From assembly GCF_000340475.1 (NCBI RefSeq), contig NZ_CM001792.1, forward strand, positions 3,248,592 to 3,312,591: a DNA stretch of 64,000 nt, given 5' to 3'. A program made the translations under genes and the position numbers. Every line of letters begins with the position of its first letter. Within the stretch, counting starts at the first letter, position 1. The DNA comes from Oceanobacillus kimchii X50. Its GTDB lineage: Bacteria; Bacillota; Bacilli; Bacillales; Amphibacillaceae. This document shows positions 15,708 through 29,447 of this stretch, in pieces. The notes beneath the pieces are model-generated. The model had not been told where the DNA came from. It did not search any database and was given only the letters and a program-made list of their open reading frames with translations.

Positions 15708-15861
15708 AAAAAAGCCCTTTCCTTAGATAAGAAAAGAGCTCTGTCACCGTCTTCTCTTATCTACCAAGCATAAAAATGCTTGATGGATTTGGCACAGTAT
15801 TCAAACTAGAACCTGTTGCCGAGGCTTCTGTGGGCCATGTCCCTCCACCTCTCAGGATAAG
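15708..15861 (-). promoter_or_regulatory. SAM-I (S-box) riboswitch upstream of the monooxygenase
   Basis: On the minus strand the aptamer (complement of 15756-15861) shows the S-box landmarks: CTTATCCTGAGAGGTGGAGG at the 5' end, then GGGACATGGCCC, then GCCTCGGCAAC, and a closing GATAAG. An expression platform follows: the terminator AGCTCTTTTC / GGAAAGGGCT with a U run (complement of 15708-15740), and an overlapping antiterminator pairing of AGATAAGA with TCTTATCT. SAM binding should form P1 and release the terminator, so the operon is expressed when methionine/SAM is low. Confidence 0.93.
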
Positions 15862-15889
15862 ATATTTCATTATTTAGTTTGTTTCAACG

Positions 15890-15970: not shown

Positions 15971-15989
15971 ATATAAAAAATTAATACAT

Positions 15990-16152
15990 CTTATCAAGAG
16001 AAGCCGAGGGACCTGGCCCGTTGACGCTTCAGCAACCTCTAATTTCATTAGAAAGGTGCTACCTCCAGCAAGTTATATTTCTTGAAAGATAAGAGCCCAG
16101 ATTAAAAAAAATCCGCGACGCTCTTATTTGTTAAGCTTATCGCGGGTTTTCT
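15990..16152 (+). promoter_or_regulatory. SAM-I (S-box) riboswitch upstream of the FMN reductase
   Basis: The aptamer runs 15990-16093: CTTATCAAGAGAAGCCGAGG, GGGACCTGGCCC, CTTCAGCAACC, AAAGGTGCTACCTCCAGC and a closing GATAAG. A terminator with outer stem CCGCGA / TCGCGG and a T run spans 16112-16152. ATAAGAGC at the 3' end of the aptamer can pair with GCTCTTAT inside the terminator stem, giving the expected antiterminator. This is the second S-box in 450 bp, on the opposite strand from the first. Confidence 0.93.
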
Positions 16153-28626: not shown

Positions 28627-28663
28627 ATTTACGCCCTCCTAAAAATCAAAAATTATGTATAAA

Positions 28664-28696
28664 TAAAAAAACCAATCTCCCTATCTAGAGATCGGT
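28664..28696 (-). terminator. Terminator hairpin inside the nrdE leader
   Basis: On the minus strand CCGATCTC / GAGATTGG (with G-U pairs) followed by TTTTTTTAT, 38 nt before the nrdE start codon and downstream of the promoter region. Its location upstream of the gene it shares a strand with means it can only act as an attenuator. Confidence 0.75.
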
Positions 28697-28922
28697 TGTT
28701 AATGACAGATAATTTACTCTATCTTCACCATCTCTTCACGAGGAGATATCAAACTACTTCTTGTTAGGTAGTCTCTTAACTTTTTCAGCTTTTGTTAGAC
28801 CTTCTTAACTTACCATTTGAACATCTAGAAATTCTCGTTCTTCCAGCTAAAAGTTTATTGGAATATTCACTTTATTCCTTTGAAAACCAATGAAACACCA
28901 TTGTGGCATTGCCTCAACAAGA
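28697..28922 (-). ncRNA. Structured nrdE leader RNA of unknown class
   Basis: Between the NrdR boxes and the leader terminator the minus strand can form several stems: GGAATA / TATTCC (28860-28878); a long-range stem of AAACTTTTAGCT (complement of 28845-28856) with AGCTGAAAAAGTT (complement of 28778-28790); GACTAC / GTAGTT (28752-28774); and ATCTC / GAGAT (28730-28747). The last stem's GAGAT can instead pair with ATCTC of the terminator, giving an antiterminator. No known riboswitch consensus was recognised. Confidence 0.5.
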
Positions 28923-28970
28923 ACACAATATATAGTATTGTTGTTAGTTATCGATTTCTATATCTTGTAT
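28923..28970 (-). promoter_or_regulatory. Tandem NrdR boxes of the nrd operon
   Basis: The box at 28923-28938 (ACACAATATATAGTAT) matches the NrdR consensus acaCwAtATaTwGtgt at 15 of 16 positions on the minus strand. A weaker box at 28955-28970 keeps the core CTATATCTTG. Their centres are 32 bp apart, the helical-phase spacing known for NrdR pairs. NrdR represses ribonucleotide reductase genes when (d)ATP is high. Confidence 0.8.
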
Positions 28971-29447
28971 TAAACTCTAGCACATAACAATTTTATAATC
29001 AATAGATATTAATAATTATATTAAATCATTTTCCAGTAACGAAAACTAATTTTTTACCACTTTTCTATTATGACAAATCAAGCTCAAGAAGGAAACTAAT
29101 CTGATGATAATGAAACTTTTCTGATATTTTATTTTGCTGATCTATCCTAATAGAACCAACAATACTTGGTTTGTATTTGTTAAATTTTAATATTTTTAAT
29201 TAATTCGTCATATGACATTCCGATTTAGAGGACTAGCCAGCTCTGATTATAATAGACGGCATCCTCCTACTCAAAATAGCAGATCTTGAAACTTCCATTC
29301 AGAAATTATGTATTTTTTTTCAAGCTAGCTAAACAACACTGTTTGCAATGGAAATCAAACAGTGTAACATTCAGATTTCTTATTAATTAAGGTTTATACC
29401 TCTTTCATTGCTAGGGAAGCGTTTATTTAATTAGTACAAAAATAAAT
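28971..29447. other. Non-coding stretch upstream of the nrd operon
   Basis: About 480 bp with no supported gene. It contains a perfect 10-bp inverted repeat, ACACTGTTTG (29336-29345) and CAAACAGTGT (29356-29365), without a T run. It may belong to the nrd control region or be the 3' region of the YetF-like gene, whose transcript ends here. Confidence 0.4.

Follow-up and report, generated by a model that had tools for sequence, protein, structure and literature searches.

The class I ribonucleotide reductase leader of Oceanobacillus kimchii, a probable cobalamin riboswitch descendant without its ligand-binding core

In our judgement, the leader in front of the class I ribonucleotide reductase (RNR) operon of Oceanobacillus kimchii X50 is probably a former cobalamin riboswitch whose ligand-binding core is gone, whose expression platform persists and which acts as a ligand-blind attenuator. 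The leader is homologous to the cobalamin riboswitch, has lost the core of the aptamer and has kept a strong terminator, and it stands in a genome in which neither NrdJ nor NrdD was detected. It would not be expected to respond to B12 and may cause a partial, ligand-independent termination below the level of NrdR control.

Operon, promoter and folding of the leader

The window, i.e. the whole stretch of 64,000 nucleotides that was analysed, belongs to a genome of 3.83 Mb in a single contig (G000) and carries on its minus strand an operon-like run of three genes that were assigned by NCBIfam profile matches, namely those for the class I RNR alpha subunit (nrdE/nrdA; PRK09209; 26392..28626), which is the controlled gene, an RNR-associated flavodoxin (TIGR01754; 25961..26407) and the class I RNR beta subunit (PRK09614; 24937..25980). 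The three genes fit these profiles better than they fit canonical class Ib NrdE, for which the TIGR04170 score is 400 bits and the cut-off 750. The NrdE protein of the nearest relative (G010) is 97% identical to that of G000, and in each of the two genomes the class I alpha protein was found with one match, while no match was obtained for NrdJ (class II RNR, at E <= 1e-60) or NrdD (class III RNR). The class I enzyme is hence the only RNR detected in both species, and its shut-off by B12 would consequently be harmful.

A promoter is predicted from the sequence pattern at 28974..29002 (minus strand), consisting of a -35 element TTGATT (29002-28997), a 17-nt spacer with an extended TG and a -10 element TAGAGT (28979-28974). 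NrdR boxes occur in pairs at promoters, about 32 bp apart. With ACACWATATATWGTGT, which we take to be the box consensus, box 2 (28923..28938, minus strand) was called with one mismatch, and no other site in the window comes within three mismatches, a looseness at which 2.08 matches are expected by chance; box 1 (28955..28970, minus strand), 32 bp from box 2, is a weaker match that the pattern search missed. Both boxes are free of substitutions between G000 and G010 (0 in 34 sites). With two boxes spaced by about 32 bp and NrdR encoded in G000, the promoter fits NrdR regulation. The pattern of promoter plus box was matched in 43 of 84 nrdE loci (duplicates counted), with the matches in L026 and L061 being misplaced, as they begin within the box region. 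Box 2 lies 296 nt from the start codon, not the approximately 270 nt from boxes to nrdE that a sequence-only reading of this DNA had given, and transcription is not predicted to start downstream of the terminator, which that reading had named as a reason to abandon its proposal, since the TTGATT-17-TAGAGT promoter lies upstream.

The predicted leader of about 340 nt comprises several stems and an intrinsic terminator, and it folds better than its dinucleotide shuffles, with z -2.16 for 28664-28922 (3/200 as good) and z -3.01 for 28664-28960 (1/200 as good). The terminator (28665..28697, minus strand) had already been claimed to lie 38 nt before the start codon and proved to be real: the arms AACCGATCTC and GAGATTGGTT flank TAGATAGG (28697-28670), seven T follow at 28671-28665, the hairpin has a dG of -13.9 and ends 43 nt before the ATG, and the T run ends 38 nt before it. 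The window leader thus has the stable hairpin and U tract directly before the gene by which an attenuator is recognised, and G010 has a longer version of the hairpin that extends into the T tract (dG -18.6). A long-range stem, with its 5' strand at 28845..28855 (minus strand) and its partner at 28790-28778, is likewise present in the MFE as had been claimed; its pair 28850-28785 breaks in G010, leaving an uncompensated mismatch.

An alternative upstream pairing of the terminator 5' arm had been proposed too, and it does exist (GAGAUGG, 28734-28728), with the possible antiterminator strand GAGAUGGU (28727..28734, minus strand) pairing with 28697-28688, but the energy of the duplex lies within the range of shuffles (53/500 as good in the window, 29/500 in G010), a test that four of five intact riboswitch leaders likewise fail. 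In nascent-transcript folding, the arm is paired upstream with a mean P of 0.77 in both the window and G010, and with P 0.55-0.82 in the five intact leaders folded in the same way. The predicted equilibrium folds of the two species differ, with a terminator P of 0.04 in the window versus 0.96 in G010. Two small ORFs (9 and 7 codons, found with a ribosome-site filter) have no counterpart in G010, and a leader peptide with translation-coupled attenuation was therefore set aside.

Homology to the cobalamin riboswitch and decay of the aptamer

By Rfam, no family was found at the cut-off in the leader, either with gathering or with permissive thresholds, the G010 leader being searched for RF00174. 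A weak match to the PyrR binding site RF00515 (19.7 bits versus a cut-off of 54, E 2.7) resembles the leader in its antiterminator/terminator layout but stays far under the cut-off, and we claim no similarity of the binding site. For the cobalamin riboswitch RF00174 (gathering cut-off 31.5 bits), there is no match in the window leader even at E <= 10, none in the G010 leader and none anywhere in G000 at E <= 1, the latter with the stricter filters that were used for more than 40 genomes. At the same position in relatives, RF00174 is present in 34 of 52 genomes, a count from a match list chosen by contig relevance and made after excluding six of 58 genomes without a close copy of the RNR gene; in the 34 genomes it lies 151-782 nt upstream of the RNR gene match, in four of them more than 700 nt away.

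The 84 loci gave 70 after merging of identical last 300 nt, of which 43 were riboswitch-bearing and 27 not by pattern, and among the 27, L071 and L046 (truncated) were later found to be riboswitch-bearing by HMM or covariance model (CM). From the intact leaders we built a CM that runs from the 3' half of the aptamer through P13 and the downstream stem to the terminator (R1), a CM of the riboswitch 5' half (R2) and a sequence-only HMM. R1, like R2, has 27 rows (L029, L030 and L070 (distant) and L080, a near copy of L069, were excluded, and L071 was added) and was made without the window and G010. The HMM has 30 rows, the number of the 44 candidates that passed a spacing filter, and L082, L083, L084, L086 and L087 were excluded from its targets.

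R1 matches the window leader at 28807-28666 (feature 28666..28807, minus strand) with 42.9 bits and E 7e-9 over 64 kb, in an alignment that spans positions 1-157 and hence includes the 3' aptamer part beyond the terminator, and it matches the G010 leader with E 2.5e-7. Of 1420 first-look candidates in the G000 genome, 107 were scored with R1, and the leader (E 4.2e-7) is the sole match reported at E <= 1. Across the genus (28 genomes), 50 of the 52 matches at E <= 1e-3 overlap RF00174, and the remaining two are the leaders before nrdE in G000 and G010. The HMM gives the window leader 15.6 bits, with a best score of 1.7 in 400 dinucleotide shuffles; it missed the L002 leader with a stretch of 300 nt and gave it 5.4 bits with 430 nt, a leader that is clear by CM. 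On account of the R1 match, the genus-wide R1 matches and the HMM results, the leader is a probable cobalamin riboswitch descendant, and common descent with RF00174 appears most likely. The statement of the sequence-only reading that no known riboswitch class is recognisable is thus correct by Rfam score, but it does not hold for the 3' half, which is homologous to the cobalamin riboswitch by R1; for the deoxynucleotide or metal ligand that it suggested, no support was found. At the DNA level, a search of 58 relatives found the leader in full length only in G010, plus a 25-base NrdR-box match in G012, and the 28 genus genomes gave the same outcome, i.e. two species with this form; no similarity to the leader was found in plasmid and phage records.

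The aptamer has not been retained evenly. Whereas the 30 intact leaders keep 104-114 of 114 near-invariant columns, the window leader keeps 65 and the G010 leader 69, and in the window the 5' part of P3-P6 accounts for 16 of 41, the stretch from P13 to the antiterminator for 17 of 23 and the terminator for 11 of 12. The 3' core motif AGUCAGGAxACCUGCC, presumably the "B12 box", is left as a putative remnant (28767..28785, minus strand, here AAGUUAAGAGACUACC) with 8 of 14 columns kept, and 7 of 14 in G010. The near-invariant RF00174 core of GGGAA, CCCCGCAACUG and AGUCAGGAxACCUGCC was not found in the window leader. In the former 5' half of the aptamer (28821..28929, minus strand), which appears decayed, R2 reaches 5.9 bits and E 0.36 over 701 nt, which is at the right place but second-best and not significant, and in G010 it stands at E 1.2.

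A P1/P2-like closing helix can be drawn from pairing between the 5' strand UUCUUGUU-g-AGG (28912..28923) and the 3' strand CCU-AACAAGAA (28758..28768), both on the minus strand. Both species are able to form this P1-like helix, which is part of the MFE of G010 but not of that of the window, and its strands (28912-28924 and 28757-28768) differ by one substitution in 25 sites. A P13-like hairpin (AUCUC-CUCGUGAA-GAGAU; 28729..28748, minus strand) follows from the R1 alignment. The L5-L13 kissing loop of cobalamin riboswitches, as described in a passage of PMC9600662, was not found in the window leader, the L13-like loop being CUCGUGAA versus the CCGGGG type in relatives.

Relatives, gene content and known systems

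Cobalamin riboswitches before class I RNR operons are already known, as passages of PMC4342826 and PMC3848588 indicate. In Propionibacterium acnes, nrdAB is under such a riboswitch and much of the transcription stops before the first gene, as described in part of PMC3848588; nrdAB of Bacillus methanolicus is placed under one in a section of PMC4342826, and nrdABS of Streptomyces coelicolor is cited in this literature as another cobalamin-riboswitch class I RNR operon. Compared with RF00174 in these positions, the window leader is alike in the kind of gene, in its place between an NrdR-box promoter and the start codon, in the P13/terminator layout and in a detectable homology of the 3' half. 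It is unlike them in that the ligand-binding core and the kissing-loop sequence are lost, in that the leader has no Rfam match and in that the genome has no detected NrdJ. A search of open-licence literature on the B12 riboswitch, RNR, Oceanobacillus and riboswitch loss gave no paper on this decayed leader among the matches listed.

According to passages of PMC545781 and PMC2211319, a B12-independent isozyme is repressed by B12 in cases where its place can be taken by a B12-dependent one. Our counts fit this logic of isozyme replacement, as NrdJ is present in all 34 riboswitch-bearing genomes and absent in 6 of the 18 that lack it (Fisher P 9e-4 for all 52, with kinship ignored). The loss of NrdJ as the sole cause of riboswitch loss was rejected, however, since the other 12 riboswitch-free genomes still have NrdJ, and it is hence not the whole story. 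On a NrdE tree that covers 30 of the 52 genomes, the label of riboswitch loss needs four changes, at least three of which are forced by well-supported branches. The B12-binding domain gave no match in G000 and one weak match (2.0e-4) in G010. Cobalamin adenosyltransferase was found in 57 of 58 genomes, including G000, and its retention indicates that B12 is not entirely absent from the biology of the cell. As a separate observation, nrdJ was matched in pieces in G005, G006, G007, G011, G014, G022, G023 and G024 and likewise in G036, G037 and G041; the breaks fall near residues 267 and/or 482, and some pieces have a stop codon at their edge, as if introns or other insertions had entered the gene repeatedly at the same sites. 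An insertion is also suggested in nrdE of a Pseudogracilibacillus MAG (L081, 4001-7300), where the match extends over 3300 bases versus about 2200.

A comparable case is the metE riboswitch of Mycobacterium tuberculosis, where B12 selected riboswitch mutations in cultures that were MetH-negative (reported by Warner et al. 2007, as cited in a passage of PMC4428469). Both cases have in common that a B12 off-switch before the remaining isozyme is harmful once the B12-dependent isozyme is gone. They differ in that the mycobacterial example concerns selection in culture, with none in clinical isolates according to that passage, whereas the window leader represents long-term decay in which the platform has been retained.

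On the NrdE tree, the pair of G000 and G010 is sister to a clade of seven genomes. R1 found none of the seven sister-clade leaders at E <= 10, while R2 matched L007 (6.8e-6), L005 (0.003) and L003 (0.008); L004, L008 and L006 stand at E 0.24 to 1.2, and L009 was not listed. Three of the seven leaders thus still show the 5' half of the riboswitch, i.e. the half opposite to the 3' half of the window. No strong terminator was found in the three sister-clade leaders that were tested (L003, L007 and L009), nor in the riboswitch-free L010, L011 and L035. In L025, L026 and L027, the stretch from promoter to start codon is much shorter, and L025 and L026 have a terminator-like hairpin.

Some further features of decayed leaders were noted in passing. 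L063, from a Bacillales MAG, has a half-decayed cobalamin riboswitch before nrdE (R2 3.7e-7, R1 weak at 0.031). By eye, L003, L004, L005, L007 and L009 contain a CTACTATATATAGTAC-like palindrome that resembles a third NrdR box and lies in a possible hairpin, and the L006 leader has an extra block of about 150 nt compared with its relatives, which resembles an intergenic repeat.

Divergence of the leader and its possible explanations

Between G000 and G010, four-fold sites have changed at 1960 of 6125 positions (0.32). The leader as a whole (44/336) has diverged as much as the remaining intergenic DNA that could be aligned (685/5173), a comparison that excludes 2599 bases of unaligned intergenic DNA, but its parts differ. 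The former aptamer has changed at 32 of 138 sites. By comparison, P1, P13 and the antiterminator region together have changed at 6 of 84 (Fisher P 0.0017), and adding the terminator to them gives 10 of 119 (P 0.0013); both P values are optimistic because the segments were picked after viewing the alignment. In the most decayed parts (28858-28911 and 28767-28785), 24 of 73 sites have changed, which equals the four-fold rate, and the B12-box homolog at 28767-28785 alone differs at 6 of 19. The P13 stretch (28756-28724) has three substitutions in 33 sites and the terminator (28663-28697) four in 35. Simple decay does not account for two segments of the former aptamer, namely 28857-28830 with only one substitution in 27 sites and 28829-28786, which is intermediate with 7 of 40. 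Of the two intact SAM riboswitches of the window, one has changed at 5 of 109 sites and the other at 11 of 108; they stand back to back at 15754-15863 (minus strand) and 15988-16095 (plus strand), each well above the Rfam cut-off.

From our point of view, these data can be brought together as follows. In the ancestor, transcription would have begun at the NrdR-controlled promoter and, when B12 was plentiful, the riboswitch would have let the terminator form, so that class I RNR was switched off and the B12-dependent NrdJ was favoured; homology and the published precedents point to both steps. The lineage of the window has no NrdJ, and its riboswitch core is decayed. What is left of the riboswitch, namely P1, P13 and the terminator, would then most likely work as a ligand-independent partial attenuator that sets the share of NrdR-controlled transcription reaching nrdE. 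The earlier idea that NrdR control at the promoter is backed by attenuation would thus have the architecture right, but this architecture is, judging from the 34 of 52 genomes and the R1 homology, inherited from the cobalamin riboswitch.

One could instead regard the leader as a pure relic, i.e. a riboswitch fossil without a regulatory role whose terminator is bypassed or inefficient and whose remaining conservation reflects the promoter, the NrdR boxes and slow decay. Such a fossil would agree with the average overall divergence of the leader and with the several riboswitch-free relatives that do without a strong terminator (L003, L007, L009, L010, L011 and L035), and an efficient constitutive termination before the only detected RNR would indeed be costly. 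However, the hairpin is stable in both species (dG -13.9 in the window and -18.6 in G010), and P1, P13 and the antiterminator region have changed at far fewer sites (6/84) than the four-fold rate of 0.32 would give, and we therefore consider a pure relic unlikely, albeit worth serious thought.

More doubtful still is a re-purposed switch, in which the scaffold of the cobalamin riboswitch was rebuilt for a different signal, for example the nucleotide or redox state. The new sensor would then include the long-range stem (28855-28845/28790-28778) together with the conserved segment 28857-28830. Such a switch would account for the single substitution in the 27 sites of this former aptamer segment and for the MFEs being kept between the species: the window MFE is retained in G010 above relocated substitutions (P 0.015), and for the G010 MFE in the window 0 of 2000 relocations broke as few pairs, with three compensatory pairs. 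Against a rebuilt sensor speak the nascent window fold, the retention of which is not significant (P 0.14), the uncompensated mismatch of the long-range stem in G010 and the fact that the comparison comprises just two sequences and three compensatory pairs.

That the leader is a still-working, highly divergent cobalamin riboswitch is very improbable: its homology to intact riboswitches and the presence of the adenosyltransferase would suit such a switch, but it has no RF00174 score, the cell has no NrdJ to replace the repressed enzyme, and the B12-box homolog and the P2-P3 region are broken and change at about the four-fold rate. Just as little credence can be given to an unrelated new leader RNA that resembles cobalamin leaders by chance or in the terminator only, for although R2 found nothing significant in the 5' half and the HMM without the terminator end (the last 85 nt) gave the window only 1.6 bits and shuffles of another leader reached 8.2, the R1 alignment covers the 3' aptamer part beyond the terminator, the leader without these 85 nt still scores above the best of its own 400 shuffles (-1.1), and its position relative to the promoter and the start codon is the same.

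Overall, the leaders of this genus and its neighbours form a series of riboswitch death before one and the same gene, from intact riboswitches over decayed ones with opposite halves left in sister clades to near-deletions. The series suggests that the sensing core is lost first and that a terminator before an essential gene can persist. It further calls for caution, as a structured leader that Rfam fails to match may belong, in degenerate form, to a known class and not to a new one. The nrdE leader offers a testable case on the question of whether the platform of a riboswitch may survive its aptamer or grow beyond it, and if the re-purposing were true, a cobalamin riboswitch would have changed its ligand while guarding the only detected RNR of the cell.
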